22,554 bases of DNA, from positions 1-22,554 of IMG/VR virus record IMGVR_UViG_3300037504_000129. One strand, given 5' to 3'. The notes beneath the pieces were generated by a model that worked only from the letters and a program-made list of their open reading frames with translations, searched no databases and had not been told where the DNA came from. Shown here piece after piece: positions 42 through 18,251 of the stretch. Position numbers and translations under genes: made by a program. The first letter of the stretch is position 1. Every line of letters begins with the position of its first letter. This DNA is from a virus.

Positions 42-57
42 CTACGAACTTTCGTAG
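42..57. repeat. Short perfect inverted repeat over the sulfotransferase stop codon
   Basis: CTACGAA at 42-48 and TTCGTAG at 51-57 are exact reverse complements separated by 2 bases. On the minus-strand mRNA this could form a 6-bp hairpin with a 4-nt loop that includes the stop codon of the sulfotransferase gene. No T-run follows it in the direction of transcription, so I do not call it a terminator. It may be chance. Confidence 0.35.
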
Positions 58-770
58 CCCCAGTATCGAAGCGCATCCCCATGCACGCGCTCGAACGCCT
101 CCACCTCGCTGCGTGGCAGCGAGTCTCGCCACGCCCAATTCGCACGATCGTTGATCGCAAACGTCACCTCGTCGTTGGCGAGCCCCAATTGAGCCCGCAC
201 CCGTACCATCGTAGCGCGTGGCTCGGCGACCAACTGCTCGTAGCGCACGGTGATTTCTGCTGCCTCGCACGAGGCAACACACCGCGCCCACTGATAGCCT
301 GCCAGCACGAAGAACGATCGCCCCGCCTGCTCCCATGTCTGCTGCTCAGCCTCGGTCAGCGGTCCCCAGCGCCATTGCGTTGGGCCTGCCCATCCCCGCC
401 ACCAGCTCTGTTGCATCAGCGAGAAAGCCACGGCTCGCCCGTCTCGCACGACGTGTACCGTCCGCACCTCGGGCCAGATCGCACGCAGGAAATCACGCCG
501 CCCCCATCCCGTGACTTTGGCCAATAGGCGTCTGCCCGGTGTCGCTGCCTGCCGTTCGGCCAGCCACGTTTCGGCTCGCTGCTTCACGCCGGCGTCAACA
601 TCCCGTGCTGTCAGGTCGCGGCACGGTGCCCGAAAACCACGATAGATGCGATCCCAGTGATCGTACGGCTCCGGGCTGCCCGGCACCAGCTCGGCCAACT
701 CCGGGTGTGCTGCCAGCAACCGATACGAGAGCGTCGTTCCGCTTCGGCCAGAGCCGACAAGCACAATCAC
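42..770 (-). CDS. Sulfotransferase, PAPS-dependent type
   Basis: This probably transfers sulfate from PAPS to a hydroxyl or amine of a glycan or other cytoplasmic acceptor. The N-terminus carries the phosphosulfate-binding loop VGSGRSGTT (about residues 5-13), directly after a first beta strand. The second family motif, VVRDGRAVAFSL (about 107-118), supplies the Arg and Ser expected to bind the 3'-phosphate. A C-terminal YEQLV segment also fits the family. The length of 242 residues is usual for bacterial members. I chose the GTG at 770-768 because it forms a GTGA overlap with the upstream stop and follows GGAGGT at a 6-base spacing. An ATG at 797 would overlap the upstream gene by 31 bases. 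It is the last complete gene of the sugar-modification module. The acceptor is unknown. Confidence 0.85.
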   Translation of the reverse strand: MIVLVGSGRSGTTLSYRLLAAHPELAELVPGSPEPYDHWDRIYRGFRAPCRDLTARDVDAGVKQRAETWLAERQAATPGRRLLAKVTGWGRRDFLRAIWPEVRTVHVVRDGRAVAFSLMQQSWWRGWAGPTQWRWGPLTEAEQQTWEQAGRSFFVLAGYQWARCVASCEAAEITVRYEQLVAEPRATMVRVRAQLGLANDEVTFAINDRANWAWRDSLPRSEVEAFERVHGDALRYWGYESS

Positions 771-1393
771 AGGCGCACCTCCCGGCCACAACCCCAACAG
801 GCAAACGGCCGACCACGCACAAGCTCATCGTACCGGCGACCGCATTTTGGACATTCGAGCGGCCCAGTTCGTTCGTAGATCGCTCGCATGTAATGGTTGA
901 TCCGCCAGGCCAAGCCCAGCTCGTGCACCTGTAGGCCACGCTCACGCTCCCACGCGGCCACGGTACGCACCAACGGCCCGTGCTCGCCCGGCGTGCCCTC
1001 GCTCTCCATGCGCGCGATCCAGTCGTCCACGAAAGCGCCCGCCTCGGCCGAGCCATCAAGCAAAATCGCTCCGCACGACCACGCCATGTTATGGCCTCGC
1101 ATCAGCCCCAGCGTGCACGGCAGTTGCGGCCACTGGGGCGCTTCGTCGAGGTGGCAGTCGACGTCAAGCCACATGATGGGCGATCCGGCCGCTACGCCGT
1201 ACACCTCGCCTCGCAAGCACTGCCGAATAAAATACGGCTTGTGGCGGCAGTTGGCCAACCACTCGCCAATTGGCTCGATCATGCGTATCGCGTGCGGCAA
1301 ACCAAGCTCGGTGAGCCTCTGTATTTGCAACTCGCGGACCACCGCGTAATAACCTGGTCGGCTCGTGGCGTAGGATACAATCGTCGGCTGCAT
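767..1393 (-). CDS. GT-A-like glycosyltransferase with C-terminal zinc ribbon
   Basis: This is a predicted nucleotide-sugar transferase of 208 residues. The core looks like a GT-A domain: an N-terminal strand (TIVSYATSRPGYY), a KPYFIRQCL helix near 52-60, then IMWLDVDCHLDE, whose DVD at 77-79 fits the metal-binding DxD motif. Appended is a four-cysteine zinc ribbon with CPKC at 181-184 and CWGC at 199-202, an unusual partner for such an enzyme. The ATG at 1393 lies 2 bases after the upstream stop. The gene overlaps the following sulfotransferase gene by GTGA, so the two are probably translationally coupled. The GT-A call rests on the DxD context and overall pattern, not on a search. Sugar and acceptor are unknown. 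The ribbon could bind nucleic acid, a partner protein or simply stabilise the fold. Confidence 0.7.
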   Translation of the reverse strand: MQPTIVSYATSRPGYYAVVRELQIQRLTELGLPHAIRMIEPIGEWLANCRHKPYFIRQCLRGEVYGVAAGSPIMWLDVDCHLDEAPQWPQLPCTLGLMRGHNMAWSCGAILLDGSAEAGAFVDDWIARMESEGTPGEHGPLVRTVAAWERERGLQVHELGLAWRINHYMRAIYERTGPLECPKCGRRYDELVRGRPFACWGCGREVRL

Positions 1394-1395
1394 GC

Positions 1396-2355
1396 TCACG
1401 CCTCCCGTGTTTCGCGCGCCGCAATCAGGCGATCGAACAGTCGGTAATAGGCAGCCGCCCGGCGGCTCCAACACCACGGAGCAATCGCCTCTTCCATTCT
1501 CGGCTGCCACTTGTGATACCGCTCGACGGCCACCATGACGGCCGACTCGATATCGTCGATCGTGCGGTCGCACAACAGGCCGTTGACGCCGTGCTCGATC
1601 AACTCGGGCATATTGCCTACGCAGGTGCTCACGAGCACACAGCCGCAACTAGCGGCCTCCAGCGCCGGGTTCGGTGTGCCCTCGCTATTTGAGCAGCACA
1701 AATACACCGTGCCGGCGTTATACCACTGTCGCATCTCGTCCGCCGTCCAGCCGTGGCCCTGCTCGACCTTGCACGAGTCGACGCGCCGCAAATCGAGCGG
1801 CACGCCGCGCGCCGCCAGGCGCTCTTGCAACGGCAGCAAGAATCGGTAATAGCCCTTGAGATCCTTGTTGGGCTGCGTGTGGTACGTCGAGCCACACCAC
1901 AGCACTTTGGGCGCGCGGCGATCGGGCGCAACGTCAATGAAAAACCGCTGGCGATCCACGCCGTTGGAAATCCACGACGTTTTCGCCGGCATCCCAGCCA
2001 AACCCCAGGCAGCCCGGTTGTTGAACACGATCCAATCGCTAGCCGCGTAGAAGTTCGGCCAATGGTCGCGGCCCTCGTGCGGTCCCTCGCGCAGCCAGCC
2101 GGTCGTGTAGTTGGTCACGATCACCCCACGGTCGCCTCGCCGCTTGATATGATCGCGCAACCGCATGGTGCAATTGTACGACGGCTGCAACCAGATGTCG
2201 GGTGAATCGTCTGGAAACGTCTTGCGGTTGCCAAGCGCCAATTCTACCTGCCAGTGATCCGGCGCGTATTTGCGCAGCGCCTCGGCGCGTCGATGGTACG
2301 CCCACCCCTCGCGATCGAATAGCAGCCGCGCGCGGCGTTTATCGGTGGTAGACAT
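1396..2355 (-). CDS. Glycosyltransferase, GT-B fold, GT4-like
   Basis: This 319-residue enzyme probably uses a nucleotide-activated sugar. The second Rossmann half begins near VLWCGSTYHT (151-160). It contains the donor-binding motif SEGTPNPALEAASCG, with the Glu pair E225 and E233 in the E-x7-E spacing of GT4-like retaining enzymes, followed by GNMPELIEHGVNG. The N-terminus has AYHRRAEALRKYAPDHW, closely matched by the enzyme encoded at 3557-4498, so the two look like paralogues. The start at 2355 overlaps the methyltransferase stop by 17 bases. An upstream in-frame ATG at 2514 would overlap that gene by 176 bases and is rejected. Typical GT-B enzymes are about 350-400 residues, so this is compact, as phage versions often are. 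Donor and acceptor are unknown. Confidence 0.88.
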   Translation of the reverse strand: MSTTDKRRARLLFDREGWAYHRRAEALRKYAPDHWQVELALGNRKTFPDDSPDIWLQPSYNCTMRLRDHIKRRGDRGVIVTNYTTGWLREGPHEGRDHWPNFYAASDWIVFNNRAAWGLAGMPAKTSWISNGVDRQRFFIDVAPDRRAPKVLWCGSTYHTQPNKDLKGYYRFLLPLQERLAARGVPLDLRRVDSCKVEQGHGWTADEMRQWYNAGTVYLCCSNSEGTPNPALEAASCGCVLVSTCVGNMPELIEHGVNGLLCDRTIDDIESAVMVAVERYHKWQPRMEEAIAPWCWSRRAAAYYRLFDRLIAARETREA

Positions 2356-2905
2356 AGACGGTGTACGCCTCCGGGTAGGCCGTCGCTTCAAACTCCAGTC
2401 GCATCTTTTCGCGCCAACCGCCCTGCAACAGCGTGTCGGCCATCGCACGTCCGTCGTCGGCCGTGTGGCAGTCCCACACCCACACACCATCAGGTCGCAA
2501 CGCGCTGGCGACATTCTCGGCGATCGCGTCTAGTTCATCGATCTCCTCCATTCCCTGGAGCCAATTGATCGTGCAGATCGCCGCGAATTGCACGCCACGA
2601 AAACCAACCCGCTCGGCAAGTGACCCCACCGCCACGTTGTCCAGGCCGGTGCGTCGCTTGGCCAGCTCGACATGGCCGGGGCGAAGATCCTGCCCGTACA
2701 ACCGCTGCGCCCCAAGGCCGCGTAACCTCAGCAGCCGCAGCAGCTCGCCGCTCCCGCACCCGACGTCGAGAATCGGCCCGTCAACCCAGGTAAACAGCCA
2801 CGATGCCACGTCCGGCAGCGTGGGCGTGTACCGCGACCCGTCCTTGAGCCATTCGATCAACTCCAGATCGTCGACGGGCACCTTATGATCTGAGCTTAAC
2901 GGCAT
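2339..2905 (-). CDS. Class I SAM-dependent methyltransferase
   Basis: This 188-residue protein has the Rossmann-fold methyltransferase signature ILDVGCGSGELLRLL (motif I, about 45-59), in which the glycine loop binds S-adenosylmethionine. An acidic residue follows strand 2 (LYGQDLRPGHVELAK, Asp73). Motif IV may be the AAICTINWLQ region near 108-117. Its position between a deacetylase and a glycosyltransferase suggests a sugar or glycan methyltransferase; nothing in it resembles a DNA methyltransferase (no DPPY/NPPY). The start at 2905 overlaps the deacetylase stop by 10 bases. The substrate is inferred from context only; a small-molecule or protein substrate is possible. Confidence 0.85.
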   Translation of the reverse strand: MPLSSDHKVPVDDLELIEWLKDGSRYTPTLPDVASWLFTWVDGPILDVGCGSGELLRLLRLRGLGAQRLYGQDLRPGHVELAKRRTGLDNVAVGSLAERVGFRGVQFAAICTINWLQGMEEIDELDAIAENVASALRPDGVWVWDCHTADDGRAMADTLLQGGWREKMRLEFEATAYPEAYTVYVYHR

Positions 2906-3564
2906 GTGTAACACTCCTGTTGAGCAAGGGAAAACTCGGGATATAACTCGCGCCCATGCCATTCGGGCGTTTGGGTACACCCGTAGCGATAATAGTCCAG
3001 CAATTGCGACTTGGCGATCAGGTCGACGGGCACCGCGATGCTGCCCTGCCGGTCGTAGTGCCACAGCGCATAGCCATACGTTGGTTGGCAACTGCTTGCC
3101 AGATCGGCGGCCCATCGGTGTTGCGCTCTGGCCACGTCAAAGCCGCTCGCATACTGCTGAGCCGTGTAGTCGCCGTCGACGCCGTGAGTCACTACCACGC
3201 TTGGCTCGTAGTCCGCCAGCGCATCGAGTAGTACCCACTCGGCAAGCGCGGTGGTTGCGTGGCGGTCCTTGCACTCGGCGATTTGCGGCAAGCGCAGATG
3301 AATGCCCGTCGCGCCGACCTCCTGGCACACCCGCGCAAACGCCCCAAGTCGCATGTTGCGTCGATACGGTTCTCTGGCGACTTCCTGCGGCGTTCTCGGC
3401 GGGTTGCACGCCGACACATCGGTCAGTACGGCGATCGTTAGCGACTTCGCCACGGCTTGAGCCGCCAACAGCAGCCCACCGAAAAACAGCGCCTCATCGT
3501 CGTAGTGCGCTGCCAACACCATCACGCGCTGCCCCCGTAATCGCTCATGCGCCGGGCTATCCAT
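2896..3564 (-). CDS. PIG-L/LmbE-family deacetylase, variant active site
   Basis: This family removes the acetyl group from N-acetylglucosamine-containing substrates with a metal-dependent mechanism. The N-terminal motif AAHYDDEALFFGG (18-30) matches the family's A-H-P-D-D-E core, with Tyr in place of Pro. H20 and D23 would be metal ligands and D22 the catalytic base. A second conserved block, VVVTHGVDGDY (123-133), follows. The family's usual H-P-x-H after this block is missing: the residues are TAQQYASGFD, so the third metal ligand is not evident. The length of 222 residues is normal. The start at 3564 overlaps the upstream glycosyltransferase stop by 8 bases. Neighbours on both sides are glycan-modifying enzymes, which supports a sugar substrate. 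Activity is uncertain because of the missing histidines. Confidence 0.82.
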   Translation of the reverse strand: MDSPAHERLRGQRVMVLAAHYDDEALFFGGLLLAAQAVAKSLTIAVLTDVSACNPPRTPQEVAREPYRRNMRLGAFARVCQEVGATGIHLRLPQIAECKDRHATTALAEWVLLDALADYEPSVVVTHGVDGDYTAQQYASGFDVARAQHRWAADLASSCQPTYGYALWHYDRQGSIAVPVDLIAKSQLLDYYRYGCTQTPEWHGRELYPEFSLAQQECYTCR

Positions 3565-4498
3565 TGTCCGCCTCCCGCTGATTGCTCGCCCGCGCGCACA
3601 GCTCGCCATCGATCAACTGGTAGTAGTACCCCGCCAGCCGCGACCACTCCCATTGCGCGACCCGTTCCCGCACGTCGCGAATCGCGTGGAGGTACTGATG
3701 GTTGGCCTGGGTGATCGCTTCGACAAACGCCTCGACGGTCGGCGGCACGATCCAGCCTGTTTTGCCCTGCTGTACAAACTCCGGCAGCACGCCGACCGAG
3801 GTGCCAACGATCAGGCACCCGCACGCCGCCGCCTCCAGTGCCGTATTGGGCAGGCCCTCCATTTTGCTCGTCACGCAAAAAATGCGACCCGTATTGTACC
3901 AGTCGCGCATCTGGGCGGGACGCCGGCAGTCCTCTCCATTGGGGTCGACGGTCAACAGCTCCATGTCGATGTCCTGCTCGGCCAGCACCTCGCGCAATCG
4001 CTGCGCCATGGTGTAGCGCTTCACGTCGCCGCGCTCGGGCGACTGGCCGGCGATCCCGGCACACCAGAGCACCCGCGGCTTGCGCTGGTGTGGGGGCCGC
4101 GTGACGCGAAACACACGGCCATCGACACCGCTTGCCAACCGTCGCACCTTGTTGTAGCGACCGGGAATCGCCTGCTGGCACTGTCGGCTTTCGACGATCA
4201 CGATGTCCGAGCACTCGTGCAGCATGTCGAGCTTGTCGACGTAGCGCGGATATTGGGTGTTGTAACGCGACACGATCAGCGCATCAGGGCAGCGCCGACT
4301 GGCCGTCTCGTACAGCTCCTTATGGCAATTCGATCCCAGGTTGATGATCGCATCGGCATCGTCGTATTGCCATTGTCGATGATGCCCGGTCCACCAGTCG
4401 ATCGTGACGTTCCAGTCATCCGGCGCGTGATGTTGAAGCGCCTCGGCGTGATTCTTGGCGCTCCAATTGGGGCACTCGTACAGGATGTAAGCGTTCAT
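3557..4498 (-). CDS. Glycosyltransferase, GT-B fold, GT4-like (paralogue)
   Basis: This 313-residue GT-B enzyme has the donor-binding motif KMEGLPNTALEAAACGC, with E214 and E222 in the E-x7-E spacing, followed by GVLPEFVQQGKTGW. The linker strand RVLWCAGIAG (142-151) marks the start of the second Rossmann domain. The N-terminus contains NHAEALQHHAPDDW, matching the block near the N-terminus of the enzyme at 1396-2355. Both also share a (R)D/QWYN segment just before the donor motif. I read them as duplicates that diverged, possibly adding successive sugars. The ATG at 4498 forms an ATGA overlap with the sulfotransferase stop; a start at 4534 would give a longer overlap and is less likely. Donor and acceptor are unknown. 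Confidence 0.88.
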   Translation of the reverse strand: MNAYILYECPNWSAKNHAEALQHHAPDDWNVTIDWWTGHHRQWQYDDADAIINLGSNCHKELYETASRRCPDALIVSRYNTQYPRYVDKLDMLHECSDIVIVESRQCQQAIPGRYNKVRRLASGVDGRVFRVTRPPHQRKPRVLWCAGIAGQSPERGDVKRYTMAQRLREVLAEQDIDMELLTVDPNGEDCRRPAQMRDWYNTGRIFCVTSKMEGLPNTALEAAACGCLIVGTSVGVLPEFVQQGKTGWIVPPTVEAFVEAITQANHQYLHAIRDVRERVAQWEWSRLAGYYYQLIDGELCARASNQREADNG

Positions 4499-5112
4499 GC
4501 GGTGTACCAGGTATTTATGATTTGCTGCTCGCACCGCTCCACAGCGCGGCGTTGTGCGTCCTGCCAGACCGGCGCGCCGACCTTGCTGGGCGTGCGATGG
4601 ATCGGTTTGAGTTGACGAATTACCTCAGGATCAACCGGGTGATCGATGGCGGCAAGCAGCCTCAAGAAATCGTCGGCCATGCGTTCCACGCGGCCGATGA
4701 AGCCGCACGTCGGCGCATCGAGCGGGCCGGTGTAATGACTCAGCAGCTCGCCGTAGAGGCCGCCCGCGTCGACCATCCGATCCACCCAGCGGTTGAAGTC
4801 CATCTCGCGGATCGCGTTGAGCCTGTGCGTCGGGTGCCAAGGCCAGTCCTGCCAGTTGTGCGGCACGCCGACGTGATATTTCCACCAGCTCTCATACCAG
4901 GCGATCGGGTGGCGCACGAAGCAGGCCGTCAAATCGCACGCCAACGGCCGCATCGCCGGGGTGAGGTGGCGATCGGCGCGGCTGGGGTCTCGCGGGCTCG
5001 GCAAATGGATAATAGCTAGCCCGGCTCGCAGGCACGCCTCCTCGACCCACATGCCGCCGCACTTGGGGACGTGGTAAATGACCGTCGAGTAGTCAGGCAG
5101 AAATAGCGCCAT
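4495..5112 (-). CDS. Sulfotransferase of a second type
   Basis: This 205-residue protein carries HVPKCGGMWVEEA (14-26). It fits the phosphosulfate-binding loop of the carbohydrate-sulfotransferase group (consensus PK-x-G-G/S-T-W). FVRHPIAWYESWW (65-77) fits the 3'-phosphate-binding motif R-x-P...S. It is clearly different from the sulfotransferase at 42-770, whose loop is GSGRSGTT. This type is typical of enzymes that sulfate polysaccharides, which fits the flanking glycosyltransferases. It starts 3 bases after the upstream zinc-ribbon gene, with a GGAG sequence nearby, and overlaps the next glycosyltransferase by ATGA. At 205 residues it is short, so a reduced acceptor-binding region is possible. 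The acceptor is unknown. Confidence 0.82.
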   Translation of the reverse strand: MALFLPDYSTVIYHVPKCGGMWVEEACLRAGLAIIHLPSPRDPSRADRHLTPAMRPLACDLTACFVRHPIAWYESWWKYHVGVPHNWQDWPWHPTHRLNAIREMDFNRWVDRMVDAGGLYGELLSHYTGPLDAPTCGFIGRVERMADDFLRLLAAIDHPVDPEVIRQLKPIHRTPSKVGAPVWQDAQRRAVERCEQQIINTWYTA

Positions 5113-5115
5113 CGC

Positions 5116-5316
5116 TCACCATTCTCCAGCATGAAAACGCCCGCCATGATACTGTTGCTCGCCTGTTTCGATCGCTGCGGTTCCCCGCTCCATGTAGCGA
5201 TCGGAGTGCTCGTCCGCACAGTCCACGCACAGCCACATATAGTCGTCGCCGCGCGGCGTGGCTTGCGGCATCAGTTCCCCACATACCTGGCATCGCACGT
5301 TGAAAACCATAGTCAT
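5116..5316 (-). CDS. Small zinc-ribbon protein
   Basis: This 66-residue protein has two CxxC knuckles (Cys9/Cys12 in CQVC and Cys30/Cys33 in CVDC) separated by 17 residues, the layout of a treble-clef or ribbon zinc site. The C-terminal half is polar, rich in Glu, Gly and His, with no membrane segment. It sits between a glycosyltransferase (ATGA overlap at its start) and a sulfotransferase (3-base gap), so it is embedded in the sugar-modification module. It could be a regulator, an adaptor or a chaperone; I do not recognise a family. Confidence 0.75.
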   Translation of the reverse strand: MTMVFNVRCQVCGELMPQATPRGDDYMWLCVDCADEHSDRYMERGTAAIETGEQQYHGGRFHAGEW

Positions 5317-6353
5317 GCGGTGATCTCCTGAAAGAGCCGTCGCCACTGCGACGTGATGCGGCTGGCGTCGGCGTGCTCGGCCAACGCACGGCACGCCTGC
5401 TTGACGAGTGATCGTCGAAGGCGCTGATTGTCCAGCACGGCGAGCGTGTGCTTCACGAACTCGTCCTCCGTCCGACACAACATGCCTGTCTGGCCGTGTT
5501 CGAGCATTTCGTGCCACCCTCCCGCTGCGTCGACCACCAGCGGCACGCCCAGGTGCATTGCCTCCAGCCCCACCCGTGGCCAATTTTCGATCGCCGTGCC
5601 GCCCGGCTGGACGAGGCAATCCAACGAGGCCAAAAACCGCTCGGGCGGCTCCGCACCGGGCGGAAGCGTTTCGATCCACGTCGGCGGCGGCCCGGTGACT
5701 CTTTCGACCTGGCGATCAAATCCCATCACCCGGGCGCGTACCGTGTGTCCGCGTTCGGCGGCCGCTTGGCGAATTGTCTCGTAGATTGTCCAGGTGTGCG
5801 GAGAAAACTTGTCCGGGGCCGCGCGGCTCAACCGCCCTATTGTCACGACGCCCGGTGTCGCGTCAATGGCGGGTGTAGGCCGGGCCAGGTCGAAGGCGCC
5901 ACGGATCAGGTAGCCCTGCGAGGGGTCGTAGCCGACGCCGCGCAACACGGGCTCCAATTGGTGTCGCTGGTAGTGGCTTTGGAATACGTGGGCGGCGCAC
6001 GGCCCGTGCCGCTTGATCGCGCGCAACATGGCCGCCTGGGGATGCGTCATGCAGCCAACCCACACGCAGCGCGCGTCGAGGTGCTTGAGCATGGGGTAAC
6101 ACGCGCGAAACGCCGTCGAACAAACCCCCACCGCCACATTGCCGCGCACGCTCAGCCGGGCCAGCCGCTCGGGATCGGCCGTCGCATGGGACACACCCCA
6201 CTCGGCCAGACGCTCGGGCCAGGGCGGCGTCGGCCTGGTGCGGCTGATGAGCGTCACGCCCCAGCCCGCGCGTCGCCAGAGCTTGATCGTATCCCACAGC
6301 TCCGTGGCCGCGCCGCCGAGGTAGTCGAGTTCACCGAACGCAAAAAGGTTCAT
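5313..6353 (-). CDS. Glycosyltransferase, GT-B fold, GT4-like (first of module)
   Basis: This 346-residue protein begins MNLFAFGELDYLGGAATEL, a typical GT-B N-terminal glycine-rich acceptor loop. VVTIGRLSRAAPDKF (169-183) marks the start of the donor-binding domain. The motif GGTAIENWPRVGLEAMHLG gives E256 and E264 in the E-x7-E spacing, and VPLVVDAAGGWHEMLEHG completes the GT4-like C-terminal signature. It is more distant from the other two GT-B enzymes here than they are from each other. The ATG at 6353 overlaps the upstream stop as ATGA and the gene overlaps the zinc-ribbon gene downstream in the same way, linking tail genes to the sugar module. Donor and acceptor are unknown. Confidence 0.88.
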   Translation of the reverse strand: MNLFAFGELDYLGGAATELWDTIKLWRRAGWGVTLISRTRPTPPWPERLAEWGVSHATADPERLARLSVRGNVAVGVCSTAFRACYPMLKHLDARCVWVGCMTHPQAAMLRAIKRHGPCAAHVFQSHYQRHQLEPVLRGVGYDPSQGYLIRGAFDLARPTPAIDATPGVVTIGRLSRAAPDKFSPHTWTIYETIRQAAAERGHTVRARVMGFDRQVERVTGPPPTWIETLPPGAEPPERFLASLDCLVQPGGTAIENWPRVGLEAMHLGVPLVVDAAGGWHEMLEHGQTGMLCRTEDEFVKHTLAVLDNQRLRRSLVKQACRALAEHADASRITSQWRRLFQEITA

Positions 6354-6757
6354 TGTGCATTGTCCTGTGCGTGCCGTTTTGCGTGCCTGATTGCCAGACG
6401 AACAAGCACCCTGGCGGCCTGCCGCGTCGCCCACCAGCTCGACGCGGGCCAGTTGCGCCGCTGGGCTTCCTCGACAAGCCAACCGGCGATCTCGTCCAGT
6501 CGCTCGCGGCACCCGTCGGCGCCCCAGGCGTCCATTTGCCGGATGCGCGACTTGCACCCGCAGCCTTCGGTGGTGTCGATCCCGAGTCGCGAGAGCAGCT
6601 TGTGTAACTCGGTGCCGGGCAAAGGCTTCGTTGCCGGCGACACACACCCAGCGATTGGCGGTCGATGGGCAAAGGACTTGACTCGATGGGTCAGGCCGCA
6701 GTCTCGGCAGACCAGCAGGCCCCGTTTGAAGTCGGGTTTCCAACGGCAGGTGCTCAT
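6350..6757 (-). CDS. Conserved-looking phage protein with Cys motifs, function unknown
   Basis: This 135-residue protein has eight or so cysteines in two blocks. The first has Cys4, CRDC (17-20) and Cys38, suggesting a zinc site. The second is EGCGCKSRIRQMDAWGADGC (64-83). That block and the following helix (RERLDEIAGWLVEEA) resemble small phage proteins I have seen next to glycosyltransferases, but I know no function. The chosen ATG at 6757 forms an ATGA overlap with the upstream stop; an in-frame ATG at 6808 would overlap by 55 bases. It bridges the last tail-region gene and the first glycosyltransferase. A role in the sugar module or in the tail are both open. Confidence 0.7.
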   Translation of the reverse strand: MSTCRWKPDFKRGLLVCRDCGLTHRVKSFAHRPPIAGCVSPATKPLPGTELHKLLSRLGIDTTEGCGCKSRIRQMDAWGADGCRERLDEIAGWLVEEAQRRNWPASSWWATRQAARVLVRLAIRHAKRHAQDNAQ

Positions 6758-7344
6758 GAGGCGGAAAAGTATGCTGATACCTTGCAGGTGGCCGATGTGC
6801 CATCGCACGGATGATTGAAGTTTTCGTCTACCGACAACGACACGTCACTCCAATTCACGCAATCCTGCATGCTGTCGAAGTTGGTCTCAAATCGCCAGGC
6901 TATAAGGCATGGCGAGCTGCCAGTGCCGTCAAAACGCAGGTAGACCAGCATACTACCCTCGCTCGTAGCGGGGATATAGGAGTGCTGTAGATAGATTTCA
7001 CAACGACTACAATCGCCGTTGTAGGTGAAATCAAATTCCAGCCTCCATCTGGCTCTCCAGATATCATTGCCCCCCGCGTAGTCAACGTCAAGCACGCACT
7101 CTTCAAACGGAAGGATGAAATCCCCCGAATATTCCCCGCTGTCTGCGCAGCCGTCAGTACACTCGTAGCCTTCCTTGCCAACTAACCCAGAGACGGACAC
7201 CTTGACATAAGGTGGAGCCCTGCCGCTTGTACAGGCGCCACACTCGGGGTTCCCGTCGCACGGGCATTCGGCGCATTTGTAGACCCCCGCGCCGCTCTTT
7301 CGCAGGACCCCGTCGCCCGGATTCCGCCACACTTGCAGCGACAT
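6754..7344 (-). CDS. Cysteine-rich protein in the tail-tip region, function unknown
   Basis: This 196-residue protein has 14 cysteines, several in pairs (CAECPC, CGAC, CTDGC, CSRC). The body alternates hydrophobic and polar residues and contains many aromatics (for example WRARWRLEFDFTYN), suggesting beta structure. No signal peptide is apparent from the chosen start. The ATG at 7344 overlaps the upstream TAA by one base (TAATG). A start at 7401 would add a hydrophobic stretch but overlap the previous gene by 58 bases. Base use differs from neighbours: 6961-7020 is 29/60 and 7021-7080 is 31/60 G+C by hand count, against 44/60 at 17581-17640. This suggests more recent acquisition or different selection. 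It may be a secondary tail or fibre protein. Confidence 0.7.
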   Translation of the reverse strand: MSLQVWRNPGDGVLRKSGAGVYKCAECPCDGNPECGACTSGRAPPYVKVSVSGLVGKEGYECTDGCADSGEYSGDFILPFEECVLDVDYAGGNDIWRARWRLEFDFTYNGDCSRCEIYLQHSYIPATSEGSMLVYLRFDGTGSSPCLIAWRFETNFDSMQDCVNWSDVSLSVDENFNHPCDGTSATCKVSAYFSAS

Positions 7345-8240
7345 TATGCCCCAGATGAGGACCCAGATGAACACTCGCTCAATGGCACCCGCACGAAACA
7401 CCCGTCCTTGATCCCGAGCAAGTAGTCCACGTCATCAGCGTCGGTTTCCGCGGGGAACGCCTCGTCAGGAATACCGCCGAGGTTGTCGATGCAGTCCGCA
7501 TCCTCATCGTGGACCGGATTGAGGACAACTGCCCAAAACTTCGTGTTTTCCCAATCCCAGATGGCGACGATATCTGATCCGCTGGGCCCTTTGTAGTCCG
7601 TTTTTAGGTGGAAGTCATACACCGTCTCCGTATTGCCGTTAACCGCCGCCTCAGCCGAGCTGTCCTTGGTCAAGTCTTCGTTCAAAACGCCGATAAAACA
7701 GTTGGCGTTGAGGGAACCCAACCGCACCACGGCCCATTTCTCGCCGGTGCCCGACTCTTTCCAGAGGATTGTGGCCGAGCCGCTTGCGGCGCTCGCGAGC
7801 TTCTCGCTGTCGCCGACCGCTATGTCCGCGTAGCCGTGGCTGTCGTCCGTCACGTTGATTTTCACCGGCGTGACGCCCGAGAGCAGCGCAGGGGCCCAGT
7901 TGTCCTGGGCACATGGGGCCTGGAAGATCGCGAAACGCCCATCATCCCCCGAGGCTGGCGTGGCGCCGACAAACGGCGGACCGTTCTTGAAGGACTCAAG
8001 GTTGTCGCTCGGGCCGTACTTTGGCGATTGCAGGCCCACCACGGAGAAACGCGCGAGGTCGATGCCCGTGCCATTGTAGACGTTTAGCAAACCTGGCCTG
8101 GTTTGCGTATGACCGTAGCGCGTGCCAACCATCCGCATAAGCGCATCGACCTGTAGTCGCAACTCGCGCACCTCGTTGTGCGCGGCTGCCGATGGTCCGC
8201 GGTAGGGTTGGCCTGGTTGGACTCGCTTCAATGGGCTCAT
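7344..8240 (-). CDS. Probable tail-tip or fibre structural protein, function unknown
   Basis: This protein has 298 residues from the ATG at 8240, which follows the upstream TAA by one base. The N-terminus (MSPLKRVQPGQPYRG) leads into a short helix (HNEVRELRLQVDALMRM), as in trimerising tail proteins. The rest is predicted beta-rich: RPGLLNVYNGTGIDLARFSV, then an IAVGDSEKLASAASGSAT block and a KWAVVRLG strand, and a Ser/Gly-rich end (CSSGSSSGA). No enzyme motif is visible. Position two genes after the tape measure suggests a distal tail or fibre component. I recall similar sequences only as hypothetical proteins in planctomycete-like phages. An in-frame ATG at 8306 would overlap the previous gene by 65 bases. 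Confidence 0.75.
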   Translation of the reverse strand: MSPLKRVQPGQPYRGPSAAAHNEVRELRLQVDALMRMVGTRYGHTQTRPGLLNVYNGTGIDLARFSVVGLQSPKYGPSDNLESFKNGPPFVGATPASGDDGRFAIFQAPCAQDNWAPALLSGVTPVKINVTDDSHGYADIAVGDSEKLASAASGSATILWKESGTGEKWAVVRLGSLNANCFIGVLNEDLTKDSSAEAAVNGNTETVYDFHLKTDYKGPSGSDIVAIWDWENTKFWAVVLNPVHDEDADCIDNLGGIPDEAFPAETDADDVDYLLGIKDGCFVRVPLSECSSGSSSGA

Positions 8241-8241
8241 C

Positions 8242-9060
8242 TTAGCTCCAGGGATCGGGCAGGCCGAGGCTCGACCAGTCCGTCGCATCGTAGACTCGTT
8301 CGACATGCGCGGCCAGCGGACGGCTGGTGAGCGTTTTGCTCACATCGTCATCCTCCTGCTGGTACTCGATCCACAGGTAGTCGTGGCCTTTTTTTTCGGC
8401 GACGGTGATATCGTCGCCGACGGCAATGTTGCTCTCGGTTCTGCTGGAGGCGAACCGAAACGTCAACGCCACCGGCTCTTCGCCGCGCTTGGCCCCGGAG
8501 ACGCCGAGCAAAAGCAGCTCGTAGGATTCCCAAATCCGAAACGCGCCGCTGTTCATCGTCGCGACCCGCTGCTCCAGCGTCTCGATGTAGGAGTGCGACG
8601 CCACCGTTTCGTAGGCAACGTAGTGCGTTTCCTCCCACGTAAATACCGGGACAATGATGTCGGTGCCGTCGACCGTGACGCCAGAGCCATCGCGGCGCAC
8701 GCCGATCGCGCCCTTGTGGTCCGGCGCGGTTTCGCCGTCGGGAGCGTAACTGGCGATGTGCTCGACGGCCTGCGTGATATGTAGCGTTTCGCTGCCGATC
8801 TCGAACGACCAACTCACGTCGCCCGACTCGCCCTGCTCGGCGACGCCATACTGTACCTCGGCCTTCCAAATCGAATCGCCGACCTCGCGCACCCGCACGT
8901 TTTGCTTGACCAACCCGCCCCATATGCTGGCCGTCGCCGCGGCCGCGAGGCTATACGCGGTGGTCTTGTCGTCCGTGCCTGTGATTTGCAGTCGGCGCCG
9001 GCCCGAGGGGCTCTGACCGCGCGCTAGCTCCTGGCCGATTTCCTCGATCACCACGCTCAT
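8242..9060 (-). CDS. Probable distal tail structural protein, function unknown
   Basis: This 272-residue protein is encoded directly after the tape measure gene, the position of distal-tail proteins in siphoviruses. The ATG at 9060 forms an ATGA overlap with the tape measure stop; an in-frame start at 9069 is possible. The protein is rich in short beta-strand patterns (WSFEIGSETLHITQ, DIIVPVFTWEETHYVAYE, EPVALTFRFASSR). Small, evenly spread charged residues and a lack of Cys fit a virion protein. I do not recognise a Dit or baseplate-hub signature, so the role is inferred from position. Confidence 0.75.
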   Translation of the reverse strand: MSVVIEEIGQELARGQSPSGRRRLQITGTDDKTTAYSLAAAATASIWGGLVKQNVRVREVGDSIWKAEVQYGVAEQGESGDVSWSFEIGSETLHITQAVEHIASYAPDGETAPDHKGAIGVRRDGSGVTVDGTDIIVPVFTWEETHYVAYETVASHSYIETLEQRVATMNSGAFRIWESYELLLLGVSGAKRGEEPVALTFRFASSRTESNIAVGDDITVAEKKGHDYLWIEYQQEDDDVSKTLTSRPLAAHVERVYDATDWSSLGLPDPWS

Positions 9061-10667
9061 GGTTGCCACACGGGCTGTCCGCCCGCCTCCAGTTCGTCGG
9101 CCATCCGCTCGGTGTTATCGGCCGTCTTTTCAGTCGCCTTGGCCGTTCGCTCGGCCGCGTTGCCACCGAGGCCCAGTAGTTCGGCCGCCCGCGCCGAGAA
9201 CGTCCCCGCGGCGCCGGTGGGGCCCGTGTACGGCGCGCCAGCCGCCTCGAAGGTCATCGTTACCGGGTCGCGTCGCAGGTTGCGATCGGCCGTCTTGATC
9301 TCCTGCTCCGTCGCATCGGCTTCGGGCTGCACTGCCAGCAGTTGATCGAGTTCCTTGCGCAGCCGCGCCGCCTCTTGCCGAAACGGTTTCAGCGCGCGCT
9401 CGGATTCTTCAATGTCTTTGAGGAACTGCTGAAACAACGCCTCGCTATCGGCAAACGGATCGAGCCATTCCTGTAACCCGAGCTTGACCTGCGCGATGAA
9501 CTTATCCCATATTTGTTGCAGTGCCGTGGTGCCTTCGAGCCACGCCAATCGCAGCGCGGTCCACATGATGTCGGCCGCCCGCTTCATGTCGCCTGCCTTG
9601 ATCGCGTCGACGATCCCGCCCAAGACGCGCTTCACGGTGTCGGCCATCTTTGAGAATCGCGTGCCGAACAGTGACGCGATCTTTTCCCCGATGCCGCGCA
9701 GATCGACGAACGCCGCCACCAGGGCAATCACGCCCGCGACCAGCAAACCAACCGGCGACAGAAGAATACCGAGGATCGTCGACACCACGCCGAGCGCTGC
9801 GCCGACGCCGCTGATCGCCAGACCGAGGGCGGCGAATGCCGTGCCGGCCACCACGACGCCGGCCGCTACCGCAGCAACAGTAACGGTAAGCTCGCGGTTT
9901 TCGTCTATCCACGTTATCAGCGGATCGACCACCTTTGTGATCGTTTCTGCTAGGCTCGTCAGGGCTGGAGCCAATGCCGCGCCGATCCGCACGGTCGCCT
10001 GCTTCAAAGCGCCGGTAAGCGTATTCCACGCCTCTTGCATGGCCGTAGCGGCCTTGGCGTCCTCTTCGCTCCAGGCGGCAACGCCTTCGAGTGATTCGCG
10101 TAGTTCGTCGCCGCCCTTGGCCAGCAACGGCAGTATCCGAAACGCATCACCCCCGAAGATTTCATCGGCTATGAATTGCCGCTGCGACGTGGGCAGGTCG
10201 TTGAGGATGTCGGCCAGCTTGGCGAATTGCTCGCCAACGGGGAGCTTGGCGAATTGCTGGGCGTCGATGCCTAGCTTCTCGAACGTGTCGCTCAATGGCC
10301 CAGTGCCGTCGCGCACCGCCTCGCCAAGGCGGAGTTGCAGCTCCTCGACACTGCCCGAAATATCGTCGACCTCCACGCCGGCGCGCTGTGCCACTTTCAC
10401 GAGTCGGGAAATGTCTTCCACGGGTTGGCCGGTCGCTTTGGACAGGCGATCCATCGCGCTGCCTACACTGGCGAATGTGCGAGCTGCGCCGAGAAACGGA
10501 GCAAGCGCTGCGCCCCCGACACCGGCGATCTTCGCGCCCATCGCGGTGACCGACGTGCCCCACTGTGTTAGTTGCCGCGAGGCCGCGTTCAGTCCGCGCG
10601 TCAACCGCGAGCGCTGCGTGAATAGCTCGACGTAGGCCGCACCCGCTTTGATGTCGCCCGCTGCCAT
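9057..10667 (-). CDS. Tail tape measure protein
   Basis: Tape measure proteins set tail length and are packed in the tail tube, then pass into the host membrane on infection. This one has 536 residues. The first 100 contain the short-helix pattern common to the family (GLNAASRQLTQWGTSV, SKATGQPVEDISRLVKVAQRAGV). A long hydrophobic stretch spans about 261-323 with possible transmembrane helices. The C-terminus has a coiled-coil-like run (RTAKATEKTADNTERMADEL). By the usual rule of about 1.5 angstrom per residue, the tail would be near 80 nm, fairly short for a siphovirus. It follows the two tail chaperone genes by 3 bases, as in lambda-like phages. Confidence in the family is high; the start (ATG 10667) is clear. 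Confidence 0.92.
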   Translation of the reverse strand: MAAGDIKAGAAYVELFTQRSRLTRGLNAASRQLTQWGTSVTAMGAKIAGVGGAALAPFLGAARTFASVGSAMDRLSKATGQPVEDISRLVKVAQRAGVEVDDISGSVEELQLRLGEAVRDGTGPLSDTFEKLGIDAQQFAKLPVGEQFAKLADILNDLPTSQRQFIADEIFGGDAFRILPLLAKGGDELRESLEGVAAWSEEDAKAATAMQEAWNTLTGALKQATVRIGAALAPALTSLAETITKVVDPLITWIDENRELTVTVAAVAAGVVVAGTAFAALGLAISGVGAALGVVSTILGILLSPVGLLVAGVIALVAAFVDLRGIGEKIASLFGTRFSKMADTVKRVLGGIVDAIKAGDMKRAADIMWTALRLAWLEGTTALQQIWDKFIAQVKLGLQEWLDPFADSEALFQQFLKDIEESERALKPFRQEAARLRKELDQLLAVQPEADATEQEIKTADRNLRRDPVTMTFEAAGAPYTGPTGAAGTFSARAAELLGLGGNAAERTAKATEKTADNTERMADELEAGGQPVWQP

Positions 10668-10670
10668 GGC

Positions 10671-10883
10671 TTACCGCTTGGGAAAGGCTTGCTCCAGGAA
10701 TCGCCGGTCGGCGTCGCTGGCCGGCTTCGGTTGGCGTTTCGACCCGCCCAACACCCACGGACACAACTCGTTGACTGGGATCGCATCGCTTTTTTTCGAA
10801 TCGCGAAACGCATTGTGCAACTGCGCGCACACGGCGAAGGTGTGATTCCAACGCATCCGGTCGGCCTGCTCGGCCATCCACAT
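10671..10883 (-). CDS. Second tail assembly chaperone (gpT-like position)
   Basis: From the ATG at 10883 this is a 70-residue protein with MWMAEQADRMRWNHTFAV and HNAFRDSKKSD. This pattern (W-M-A-E..., then N-x-x-R-D-x-K-K) is common in small proteins encoded just before tape measure genes. The ATG shares its A with the stop of the upstream gene (TGATG). The frame is -1 relative to that gene and stays open upstream to 11066, and the extra in-frame residues (FAGW near 10955 and GYSLREL just before the ATG) look like part of the same domain. The true product may therefore be made by a -1 frameshift, as lambda gpGT is, or from an internal start. A run of seven A's on the coding strand lies at 10790-10796. 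Confidence 0.7.
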   Translation of the reverse strand: MWMAEQADRMRWNHTFAVCAQLHNAFRDSKKSDAIPVNELCPWVLGGSKRQPKPASDADRRFLEQAFPKR

Positions 10884-11404
10884 CAGTTCCCGTAGACTGT
10901 AGCCGTGGGGTTCGACGCCGGCGACGGCGGCCCATCGACAGCAACTTTGCCAACCTGCGAAAGGATCGTATCGAACCGTTCTTGCATTGCCGGGCTGGTC
11001 ATCGTCTCCGCGCCCCGCTTGACGGCCGCGTCGATCAGTTGCCGCGTTTTCTCGATCGCCTCGCAAACGTCGGGCCTCTTCAGGCCGCGGAAAAAATCCG
11101 CTAGTGCGGCCTCCAACGCCGCATGTGCCGCCTCGAGCGTTTCCCCGCCGAGCCGCGCGGCGAACTGCTCATCACTCAAACCGCGGTCGTCCGCCTGTGG
11201 CTTGCAGACGACATACAGCACGTCGACGGCGTACATGATGTCGGTGGCCAACCGGATCAACGGCGCCTGGCTGCTGTCGCTCTCGTCCGGGGACACCAGC
11301 GGGTTGCCCAGATCGACTCGGAGCAACTGCGCGACCCTCCGCAACGTGGCCGCCGTAATCGTCACGTCCCAGGCTGTTTGCTGGGTGTCGATGAATTGTG
11401 CCAT
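10883..11404 (-). CDS. Tail assembly chaperone (gpG-like position)
   Basis: This 173-residue, acidic, largely helical protein sits between the tail tube genes and the tape measure gene, the place of lambda gpG. Examples of its helices are ITAATLRRVAQLLRV, EAAHAALEAALADFFRGL and VCEAIEKTRQLIDAAVKRG. The C-terminus (after about 155) turns Pro-rich (DGPPSPASNP) over the part that overlaps the next open frame. ATG at 11404 follows a GAGG sequence. The role is inferred from order and from the -1 frame relation to the next gene, not from a diagnostic motif. Confidence 0.7.
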   Translation of the reverse strand: MAQFIDTQQTAWDVTITAATLRRVAQLLRVDLGNPLVSPDESDSSQAPLIRLATDIMYAVDVLYVVCKPQADDRGLSDEQFAARLGGETLEAAHAALEAALADFFRGLKRPDVCEAIEKTRQLIDAAVKRGAETMTSPAMQERFDTILSQVGKVAVDGPPSPASNPTATVYGN

Positions 11405-12597: not shown

Positions 12598-12993
12598 TTA
12601 TCGTTTGATGCTGCCGGCCCAATGCCTTGGCAAGCGTGGTGCCGTTTCTTGCAGCGCGGGCCGCATAAACGGTCGCGCCGGATAGTCTTGCTGTTTGTAT
12701 CGTCCGCCGTGCTCGTGCGCGGCGGCTGCCTGGCCCATCATTGTGGCCGTCGGACCGATCACCGCCGCCTGCTTGTGCTTGTCGACCGCGTACAAGATCG
12801 CCCGCGCCCGCTTGAGCTTGCCCTTGGGCGACGAAGGCGGCTGCCCCGGACGGCTCGGGCGCTTGCGTCGTCGAATACTTTTTCTCGCGGCCTTGCGGAT
12901 CGCGGCCGCCGCGTGGCCAAGGCTGGTAATGCTCGCCTTGCGTGCCGCCCGATCGATCTTACGCGCGTCAAAATGCGTCCTGCCTCGAATCAC
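12598..12993 (-). CDS. Neck or tail-completion protein, HK97 gp10-like
   Basis: This 131-residue basic protein has an N-terminal helix (RKIDRAARKASITSLGHAAAAIRKAARKSI), a Pro-rich segment (RPGQPPSSPKG) and a C-terminal block with EHGG and YPARPFMRPALQE. This order is common in the HK97 gp10 / tail-completion group that links tail to head. I chose the GTG at 12993, which forms a GTGA overlap with the upstream stop and follows GGAGGG. The ATG at 13104 would overlap the previous gene by 115 bases. The many Arg and Lys residues may bind DNA or the packed tube. The assignment fits both the sequence pattern and the gene order. Confidence 0.75.
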   Translation of the reverse strand: MIRGRTHFDARKIDRAARKASITSLGHAAAAIRKAARKSIRRRKRPSRPGQPPSSPKGKLKRARAILYAVDKHKQAAVIGPTATMMGQAAAAHEHGGRYKQQDYPARPFMRPALQETAPRLPRHWAGSIKR

Positions 12994-13439
12994 TGCCGCG
13001 CCCTCCACGTTGTGCGGATCACGCCCGTGAACGCGCGGTGATCCTCCAAGTGCTCGCGCGCCACGGCCGAATCCGCCCCAGGAACCAACGCCCGCTCCAT
13101 GCAAATCACGTTGATCGACCCGGCCGACAGCGCCGCCTGGCGGAAGTGCTCGACGATTTCCTCGACCAACACCAGCAACGCATCCACATCGTCGTTGTCG
13201 TACTGGGCCGGCAGTTTTTTTTGCACGGCTACATCAACGTCGACCTGTCGATCGTCCACGTCGCGCGCCACGGTGTTCCACTGCGCCGGCCCCGGCGTGA
13301 CCGACACGCGCAACGTCGACAGCTCCGACTCGGTATAGCGCACCTGATACAATCGCTGTGCGGTAAACGTCTGCGACAGGCTGGCCCCGTTGAGGCTAGT
13401 GACCATCGCGTCGCACAAATCGGCAATCAGGCTGCTCAT
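12990..13439 (-). CDS. Neck / tail terminator protein candidate
   Basis: This 149-residue protein has features of small neck and tail-terminator proteins: an N-terminal helix (SLIADLCDAMVTSLNG), then beta strands (LSTLRVSVTPGPAQW, RQVDVDVAVQKKL) and a helix with a run of acidic residues (DDVDALLVLVEEIVEHFRQAAL). It starts with an ATGA overlap to the upstream connector gene and ends in a GTGA overlap with the gp10-like gene. Position between connector and tail-completion genes supports a head-tail joining role. No diagnostic motif is visible. Confidence 0.68.
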   Translation of the reverse strand: MSSLIADLCDAMVTSLNGASLSQTFTAQRLYQVRYTESELSTLRVSVTPGPAQWNTVARDVDDRQVDVDVAVQKKLPAQYDNDDVDALLVLVEEIVEHFRQAALSAGSINVICMERALVPGADSAVAREHLEDHRAFTGVIRTTWRARQ

Positions 13440-17853: not shown

Positions 17854-18053
17854 TACGCGGTTCCCGGGGGCCTGATTTTGCCGACGCGGAACGGCAGCCC
17901 GCTCAACCGCGAGGCTTGCTTGCGAGCCTTGTGCTTGTCCGCTTCGATCAGCTCAGCGATACTGTGTTGCTTGATCGAGCCCTGGTCGCCGCGAGCCTCG
18001 GCGGGCTCCTGGGCGATCTTGTCGATCTGTTGTTCGATCTCGCTCTCGCTCAT
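17853..18053 (-). CDS. Small head-tail joining protein, gpW-like position
   Basis: This 66-residue protein has an N-terminal helix (MSESEIEQQIDKIAQEP), then SIKQHSIAELIEADKHKARKQA and a closing PFRVGKIRPPGTA. This arrangement is common in small proteins encoded between terminase and portal, the place of lambda gpW, which joins head and tail. The ATG at 18053 follows AAAGGG at a good distance. A frame-open ATG at 18098 lies inside the terminator hairpin and is rejected. The gene begins only 33 bases after the terminator T-run. Confidence 0.75.
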   Translation of the reverse strand: MSESEIEQQIDKIAQEPAEARGDQGSIKQHSIAELIEADKHKARKQASRLSGLPFRVGKIRPPGTA

Positions 18054-18086
18054 CACTACCCTTTGAAAACGGCCGGCGAGCGCACG

Positions 18087-18122
18087 AAAAAAGGCCATGC
18101 GGGGATGCGGCCCCGCATGGCC
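18087..18122 (-). terminator. Strong rho-independent terminator inside the late operon
   Basis: On the minus strand a perfect 12-bp stem (arms 18122-18111 and 18104-18093) with a 6-base loop is followed at once by six T's (18092-18087). This is the classic intrinsic terminator. It points along the gene string, between the terminase/zinc-ribbon pair and the gpW-like gene. On the plus strand the stem is followed only by TTGTTGTG, so it is weaker in that direction. Only 33 bases separate it from the next start codon, too few for a normal promoter. Confidence 0.88.
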
Positions 18123-18151
18123 TTGTTGTGCGCTGGAATCGCCGCCGGGGA

Positions 18152-18232
18152 TCAGCCGTCGACGTCGCCGGTCATGTTGTTGGTTTTGAGATTACCGCAT
18201 TTACTGCAAGAACTACAATGCCGCCTGGGCAA
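18152..18232 (-). CDS. Possible 26-residue Cys-rich microprotein
   Basis: In the gap between the zinc-ribbon gene and the terminator, a frame from TTG at 18232 to TGA at 18152 encodes MPRRHCSSCSKCGNLKTNNM and six further residues. Three cysteines in C-x2-C-x2-C fit half a zinc site. The start would be the rare TTG with only a weak GGCAAG upstream, and the frame is open further upstream into the zinc-ribbon gene. The Cys spacing recalls phage Com-like zinc-ribbon regulators, but it is too short to assign. It may be chance. Confidence 0.3.
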   Translation of the reverse strand: MPRRHCSSCSKCGNLKTNNMTGDVDG

Positions 18233-18251
18233 CTTGCCATATGTGGCAGTA

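Follow-up and report, generated by a model that had tools for sequence, protein, structure and literature searches.

Why would a tailed phage carry, directly behind its tail genes, what appears to be a pathway for building and decorating a glycan, and which molecule would receive that glycan? This question is raised by a viral DNA fragment of 22,554 nucleotides (IMG/VR record IMGVR_UViG_3300037504_000129), the whole of which is called the window below. The phage probably infects Planctomycetota bacteria, as do, probably, its relatives with related terminases.

A glycan gene module behind the tail genes

Nine minus-strand genes (g1 to g9, positions 42-6353) directly continue the tail genes without interruption. 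From the tape-measure gene through g1, the largest intergenic gap is 3 nt and most of the junctions overlap (Table 1). A first-pass annotation had proposed nine glycan genes in a row and joined to the tail genes. All nine are present, and each of the overlaps claimed at 6757, 6353, 5316, 4498 and 770 proved to be a genuine stop/start overlap of 4 nt. The glycosyltransferase genes are phage-encoded, since they lie in one stretch with the terminase, portal, capsid and tail genes. The 22.5-kb fragment ends 41 nt beyond g1 and includes neither the replication region nor the opposite genome end. Matches to promoter-like consensus sequences within the module and a hairpin at the g1 stop codon were set aside as non-informative.

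Table 1. Genes of the module and the adjoining tail region, with positions in the window.
Gene	Position	Strand	Assignment
g1	42-770	-	GTG start; Sulfotransfer_3-type sulfotransferase
g2	767-1393	-	Putative GT-A-type glycosyltransferase with DVD motif and C-terminal four-cysteine zinc ribbon (model-based)
g3	1396-2355	-	GT4 (GT-B) glycosyltransferase (Pfam)
g4	2339-2905	-	SAM-dependent methyltransferase (Pfam)
g5	2896-3564	-	PIG-L/LmbE-type de-N-acetylase, AHxDDE and distal His
g6	3557-4498	-	GT4 (GT-B) glycosyltransferase, EX7E motif
g7	4495-5112	-	Sulfotransfer_2-like sulfotransferase of a family different from g1 (motifs and structure matches)
g8	5116-5316	-	Small DksA-like four-cysteine protein
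g9	5313-6353	-	GT4 (GT-B) glycosyltransferase, EX7E motif
g10	6350-6757	-	Zinc-ribbon and CxC domain protein
g11	6754-7401	-	Late Cys-rich protein and candidate acceptor, with an uncertain start codon
g12	7344-8306	-	Candidate acceptor from the tail-tip region, conserved in the clade
g13	8242-9069	-	Tail protein conserved in the clade
Tape measure	9057-10667	-	Tail tape-measure protein (PHROG 8125, 5.5e-38)

Predicted enzymes

Profile searches, which the first-pass annotation had put forward as a way to refute its family names, left those names standing. They are upheld by Pfam for g1, g3-g6 and g9, by motifs and structure matches for g7, and, more tentatively, by structure matches for g2. The proteins g3 and g6 (PF13692, Glycosyl transferases group 1; 9.5e-15 and 4.3e-17) and g9 (PF00534; 2e-11) exceed the curated Pfam cut-off for the C-terminal nucleotide-sugar domain (Glycos_transf_1 or Glyco_trans_1_4) and conserve EX7E in alignments, which places them in GT4. 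The first two are paralogues that share 32% identity. In searches for relatives of g6, six exact peptide patterns found none in viral contigs, an alignment of the two paralogues reached three distant contigs, and cultured phages yielded three weak cyanophage matches. No Pfam family matches g2. Its low-confidence model (pLDDT 52.5) gave 50 listed structure matches, every one of them to a GT-A-type enzyme (Z up to 7.9, rmsd 3.8, 147 residues aligned). One of these is the capsid glycosyltransferase A064R of chlorovirus PBCV-1; its first domain ranks with the nearest folds (Z about 7), at an identity of about 11-16%. Searching with g2 alone found no relatives in viral contigs, nor was there a match among 392 sampled Planctomycetota genomes.

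The tailoring enzymes include a methyltransferase (g4; PF13649, Methyltransf_25, 2e-10) and a deacetylase (g5; PF02585, PIG-L, 2.3e-8; 35.1 bits versus a cut-off of 28.2). The deacetylase has the AHxDDE zinc site and the distal histidine, and its residues H20, D22, D23 and H149 are conserved in homologues from contigs G006 and G451, both of which also encode a g4 homologue. An apparent loss of the distal zinc ligand was dropped as a candidate feature, since alignment with these homologues showed an 11-residue insertion and a conserved histidine. The first histidine of the GHxxH motif is replaced, and because one of its two histidines is missing, the predicted activity of g5 is less certain.

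Two predicted sulfotransferases of different families complete the set. The first, g1, matches PF13469 (Sulfotransfer_3) at 3.8e-18, with 67 bits against a cut-off of 27. A profile made from g1 and its G451 homologue matches tyrosylprotein sulfotransferases at 1.8e-10, and by this measure g1 is a distant relative of protein-tyrosine sulfotransferases. The second, g7, has no Pfam or NCBIfam match, and for neither g7 nor g5 did phmmer find anything useful among solved structures. The g7 protein is recognizable as a PAPS sulfotransferase by its 5'-phosphosulfate loop, its R-x-P-x5-S motif and its fold rather than by a family profile. Both PAPS-binding motifs (PKCGG and RHPIAWYES) are kept in five homologues, with exact spacing in the R-x-P-x5-S 3'-phosphate motif. 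The protein is homologous to Planctomycetota proteins carrying HIPKTGG, and one homologue falls just below the Sulfotransfer_2 threshold (21 bits versus 22). All 50 listed structure matches of its moderate model (pLDDT 64) are sulfotransferases (Z 5.6-7.3, 155-182 residues), the best listed being heparan sulfate 2-O-sulfotransferase (Z 7.3, rmsd 5.1, 168 aligned).

The small protein g8 matches PHROG 54, a DksA-like zinc finger (0.0011), and no homologue was found in G451. The g10 protein resembles a GT2 fusion in G005 (phmmer, 1.4e-8) and a protein of G010 (4.1e-10), and g10-type domains occur fused to glycosyltransferases in relatives. Homologues of g12 are found in at least 12 relatives; those of g13 are found in about 19, where they lie downstream of the tape measure. 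For g11 itself there is no significant match, and its position is conserved; Cys-rich proteins at that position in G008, G451, G044 and G029 are related among themselves.

The gene set in a second phage lineage

An alignment search of viral contigs with PIG-L (g5) was the sole route to G450 and G451, two near-identical IMG/VR contigs that represent one phage; later alignment scans with g6 and g1 returned only these same two. All eight enzymes are present there at 38-56% identity (for G451, g1 45%, g2 46%, g3 52%, g4 38%, g5 44%, g6 56%, g7 42% and g9 41%), and in g2 the DVD motif and the cysteines are kept between the two sequences compared. Seven of the eight enzymes are collinear, an arrangement equalled by 50 of 40,320 gene orders. 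In G451, too, the module is preceded by a zinc-ribbon gene and a Cys-rich gene, whose likeness to g10 and g11 is one of position and cysteine pattern only, and the g1 homologue is the last gene of the module. The two phages share no detectable head or tail gene homology, including between g12 or g13 and the G451 tail genes, and they differ in GC content (52% in G450/G451 versus 64% here). In base composition, each copy of the module matches the phage that carries it, and thus the transfer was not recent.

Since a phage that is otherwise unrelated has nearly the same set in the equivalent place, the gene set is a maintained pathway and not a chance pile. The first-pass annotation's enzyme identities, the coupling to the tail genes and the combination that it had called unusual are all supported, and more strongly so because a second phage lineage has kept the set. 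It might still be argued that these are host polysaccharide genes acquired by chance and non-functional in the phage, given that bacterial polysaccharide clusters commonly contain such enzyme families. We regard this explanation as very improbable: eight intact frames persist at this level of identity across phages that differ strongly in base composition and structural genes, and gene order and the main motifs are kept between both.

Other phages carry parts of this arrangement. A third contig has the core of glycosyltransferase, deacetylase and methyltransferase genes. In some members of this terminase clade, the slot that follows the tail genes is taken by zinc-ribbon/GT4 fusions (at the g10 position in G029, G031, G036 and G044) or by Sulfotransfer_4 genes, and in another by a fusion of GT2, methyltransferase and g10-type domains. 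The unrelated G008 has a glycan island with three sulfotransferase-like genes after a Cys-rich gene and a zinc-ribbon gene. No relative of g1, g5 or g7 was found among 50,697 cultured-phage records.

The acceptor of the proposed glycan

We see about an even chance that this is a late phage pathway in which a short glycan is assembled and decorated directly on a protein of the virion; the most likely acceptor would be a tail-tip protein, g11 or g12. Sugars from host nucleotide-sugars would be added by the GT4 enzymes (g9, g6 and g3) and by g2, the putative GT-A enzyme. An N-acetylated sugar would then lose its acetyl group to g5, which would leave a free amine; g4 would methylate, and g1 and g7 would sulfate amine or hydroxyl groups with host PAPS as the donor. 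The zinc ribbons of g10 and of the g2 C terminus might guide the enzymes to the acceptor, and co-expression with the tail genes would supply soluble enzymes during virion assembly. We infer the acceptor, the substrate, the late timing, the order of the steps and the benefit, which may be tail adhesion or protection. In cultured precedents, glycosyltransferase genes need not adjoin the gene of their acceptor, and therefore the position next to the tail genes is only suggestive as a pointer to it.

Viruses that glycosylate their own particles offer the closest comparisons. Mycobacteriophages use their own glycosyltransferases to glycosylate capsid and tail-tube proteins (PMC12619734, PMC12363180). 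In the work of Freeman et al. (2023), as cited in those two papers, phages Che8, Corndog and Myrna have phage-encoded glycosyltransferases and virion-protein glycans, as is proposed here, although the passages drawn on name only glycosyltransferases, with no sulfotransferase or deacetylase, whereas the present tail operon holds eight enzymes that include two sulfotransferase families and a deacetylase. Chlorovirus PBCV-1 glycosylates its capsid protein with A064R, and the portion of that work drawn on here describes mostly soluble viral glycosyltransferases and a methyltransferase that act on the capsid protein, as we propose for the tail (PMC5408694). It differs in being a eukaryotic virus with scattered early genes, and the same portion mentions no sulfotransferase (PMC5408694). 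As an analogy only, the decoration of Nod factors (NodB/NodS/NodH/NoeE) and of heparan sulfate (NDST) has the chemical logic proposed here, namely de-N-acetylation and sulfation, with methylation in the Nod factor only; synthase and deacetylase belong to other families there, and the module has no acyltransferase.

A different target would be the host surface, where sulfate, methyl groups or sugars might be added to a Planctomycetota surface polysaccharide, either late in infection or from a prophage, and block re-adsorption or superinfection. Relatives of g1 and g7 do occur in Planctomycetota genomes, one of which clusters a g7-like with a g1-like sulfotransferase. At locus L199 the two types stand close together as in the phage, but on a genome contig where no phage genes were seen. 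Furthermore, G451 encodes a phage integrase, such that this phage may be temperate and a lysogenic role is possible there. Known phage serotype-converting systems, however, depend on integral membrane proteins. None of the proteins g1-g10 has a convincing membrane helix or a family match to a gtr-like flippase with its glycosyltransferase, and the genes of the fragment include no flippase, polymerase or lipid-carrier enzyme. For these reasons, of the two readings offered by the first-pass annotation, we favour virion glycosylation over a late change of the host surface, which we judge unlikely; the tight coupling to tail genes also favours expression at assembly.

Modification of the phage genome itself, with module enzymes decorating modified bases against restriction, seems improbable. 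Nucleotide modification systems based on glycosyltransferases and sulfotransferases have been reported for phages (PMC10829341), and a title cited in PMC12619734 refers to DNA hypermodification by virus-encoded glycosyltransferases. The genes discussed here, however, lie in a structural operon and not with replication genes, and the window proteins searched yielded no base-priming enzyme such as a hydroxymethylase or TET/JBP, most of the genome being outside the window.

Still less probable is a diffusible product, such as a decorated amino-sugar signal or a thiol-like small molecule in the style of lipochitooligosaccharides or bacillithiol. A GT4 enzyme with a PIG-L deacetylase constitutes the first half of bacillithiol and mycothiol synthesis, and g9, g6 and g3 weakly match the BshA model. 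The deacetylase, methyltransferase and sulfotransferases recall Nod-factor decoration, and g1 weakly matches NoeE. Instead of a NodC-type synthase and a CE4-type NodB deacetylase, the module has GT4 and PIG-L enzymes, and no NodA or other acyltransferase was matched. The scores miss the curated cut-offs for bacillithiol and Nod-type pathways by a wide margin, a ligase and an exporter are also lacking, and a diffusible product would leave the coupling to tail genes unexplained.

Implications

Sulfotransferases have been reported in phage genomes, where their function was stated to remain unclear (2023, PMC10580990). The module described here is small and conserved, has a fixed place behind the tail genes, and combines two sulfotransferase families with glycosyltransferases, a deacetylase and a methyltransferase that could make their substrate. 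Such a set turns the question of phage sulfotransferases into a testable one. The distribution of related genes suggests that the zinc-ribbon gene may mark a slot where diverse phages carry exchangeable glycan genes. More tentatively, and in our view less likely than not, the pathway may be a mobile one common to unrelated phages, whose sulfated, de-N-acetylated and methylated tail-tip glycan would serve as a host-bound ligand or as a shield for the tail. To our knowledge, no sulfated virion glycan is known for bacterial viruses, and if such a glycan is indeed borne by the tail tip of this phage, it would be the first.

Organization of the module and its operon

The window, a linear IMG/VR virus record of 22,554 bases that is probably a fragment, carries on its minus strand genes for a terminase, portal, putative protease-capsid fusion, cement, head-tail joining, tail and tape-measure proteins, followed by the tail genes g13 and g12, the cysteine-rich g11, the zinc-ribbon gene g10 and the nine-gene glycan module (g9 to g1). 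The protease of the fusion is suggested by ORF length, which indicates that the N-terminal half of the capsid ORF is probably a fused prohead protease. From the tape-measure gene through g1, no two neighbouring genes are separated by more than 3 nt. Most of them overlap, and among these overlaps are the 4-nt stop/start ones that the first-pass annotation had pointed out. Because the G+C content of the module (63.9%) equals that of the rest of the window (64.2%) and their codon-position patterns are alike, the module reads as resident, and neither as a recent insert nor as an assembly artefact. For g11, g12 and the gene at 12598-13104, the choice of start codon is uncertain.

The window stops 41 nt past g1, and therefore the operon end is visible only in a related contig described below (G451). 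A perfect hairpin at the g1 stop might serve as the operon terminator, and hairpins of this kind are not enriched relative to shuffled sequences. Elsewhere, a 215-nt gap occupies the usual place of the genes for tail assembly chaperones and their frameshift products; a small gene or a frameshifted extension may have gone unrecognised in it.

Coordinates of features in the window and in the contigs compared
Feature	Contig	Position	Strand	Remarks
Major capsid gene	window	14310-16430	-	single 706-aa ORF; Pfam match confined to C-terminal capsid part (402-701)
Perfect hairpin	window	57-42	-	CTACGAAAGTTCGTAG then GTTCTTTC; overlaps g1 stop
Gap	window	10668-10882		between gene 10883-11404 and tape-measure gene
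Integrase	G451	17520-18680	-	adjoins module end; strand opposite to module
Zinc-ribbon/GT4 fusion	G029, G031, G044; truncated in G036	slot
GT2/weak methyltransferase-like/g10-type CxC domain fusion	G005	oriented 42318-44357 (locus L015, 13897-15936)	-	679 aa; slot
GT2-like protein with g10 domain	G010	slot		our reading; no Pfam match
Sulfotransfer_4	G046, G051	slot		tested in G046; by similarity in G051
g10-like domain on phosphoribosyltransferase-like plus HAD-like protein	G046; G051	oriented 26816-28462; oriented 41033-42565		slot; Sulfotransfer_4-type gene near
Glycan island, ~19 kb	G008	10332-29201		loci L026, L027; behind tail genes

Enzyme identities

Pfam searches bear out the proposed GT4 enzymes (g3, g6 and g9), methyltransferase (g4), PIG-L de-N-acetylase (g5) and first sulfotransferase (g1, Sulfotransfer_3). 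A joint profile of g1 and its G451 homologue matches tyrosylprotein sulfotransferases (1.8e-10), which we read as giving the enzyme class and not the substrate. The PIG-L protein retains both the AHxDDE site and the distal histidine, and shares an 11-residue insertion with its G451 homologue. The second proposed sulfotransferase, g7, is likewise supported, though it has no Pfam match: the two PAPS-site motifs are present, homologues bearing an HIPKTGG loop occur in Planctomycetota, and its model of moderate confidence retrieves sulfotransferases in all of its best 50 structure rows, headed by heparan sulfate 2-O-sulfotransferase (Z 7.3, rmsd 5.1, 168 aligned). For g2, a putative GT-A enzyme whose model is weak, every one of the best 50 rows belongs to that class (Z up to 7.9), the PBCV-1 capsid glycosyltransferase among them. 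Since any single row with Z below 8 can be coincidental, both fold calls rest on list uniformity and motifs.

A second copy in an otherwise unrelated phage

Two contigs, IMGVR_UViG_3300017963_006700 (G451) and 3300017971_007513 (G450), were identified by searching with the PIG-L alignment; they are 99.7% identical across their overlap. Both encode homologues of all eight module enzymes at 38-56% identity to the window, in the order g9-g2-extra methyltransferase-g7-g6-g5-g4-g3-g1; the extra gene, without a Pfam match, is a methyltransferase in our reading of its sequence. Order is kept for seven of the eight enzymes, as in only 50 of 40,320 permutations. Their G+C content is 52%, they gave no match to the terminase profile, and no convincing match to window head or tail genes was found in them. 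In G451, a cysteine-rich and a zinc-ribbon gene precede the module, g1 is its last gene, and an integrase follows; this phage is probably temperate. Because eight frames stay intact and motifs are kept despite such divergence, the comparison implies that the module is under selection; that it is useless cargo is very improbable.

A third contig (G006) has GT4, PIG-L and methyltransferase genes ordered as in the window (25-35% identity), and no additional carrier emerged from scans with alignments of g6 and of g1, so that counts are small: all eight enzymes in G450 and G451, part of the set in G006.

A variable slot behind the tail genes

Matches to the terminase profile came from 71 viral contigs and from three contigs of Planctomycetota genomes; because of the latter, the host is probably a member of the Planctomycetota, with mis-binning possible for two of the three, which are short. 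Separately, a Planctomycetota genome (L170/L198) encodes an 814-aa bacterial protein that combines a methyltransferase with a GT4 domain related to g3 and g6.

Across this terminase clade, the order from terminase to g13 and g12 is conserved, and the content of the slot 3' of them differs; some members have nothing recognisable there and others a zinc-ribbon gene alone. The complete module is rare, and in this clade the GT4 profile was passed by only three contigs out of 47. Because relatives fuse zinc-ribbon or g10 domains to glycosyltransferases, these proteins, and hence g10, are tied to glycosyl transfer. The phosphoribosyltransferase-like proteins of G046 and G051 also bear the g10 domain, and thus show that it is not restricted to glycosyltransferases.

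The same succession of cysteine-rich gene, zinc-ribbon gene and glycan genes occurs in an unrelated 93-kb contig (G008, IMGVR_UViG_3300043256_000348), whose zinc-ribbon gene shows homology (6.9e-19) to the zinc-ribbon/GT4 fusions in their N-terminal half. Its island exceeds the window module in size, with three sulfotransferase-like genes, one nucleotide-sugar dehydratase-like and one aminotransferase-like gene, and several methyltransferase and GT4 genes.

Proposed function

Glycosylation of virions by phage glycosyltransferases in mycobacteriophages (PMC12619734, PMC12363180) and of the capsid by chlorovirus enzymes (PMC5408694) is established. Phage sulfotransferases are described in PMC10580990, with their function there given as unknown. 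Neither a sulfated phage glycan nor this module turned up in the open-access literature searched, where absence is not proof. Co-occurring transferases in viromes were interpreted in PMC10829341 as modifying nucleotides or proteins; DNA modification by this module appears improbable, and a small-molecule product somewhat more so.

Modification of the host surface is the stronger alternative, if still unlikely; no lipid-carrier or export genes were found with the module. Our preferred reading, at about even confidence and with acceptor and product both conjectural, is that the enzymes would glycosylate a virion protein directly, because the module would be expressed late with the tail genes, as gene order suggests, its enzymes are predicted to be soluble, lipid-carrier and export genes are lacking, and the module is tied to a zinc-ribbon gene beside the tail-tip genes. 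On this virion protein, sugars would be added, an N-acetyl group removed, and methylation and sulfation would follow, and we would guess that the amine exposed by g5 may itself become N-sulfated.
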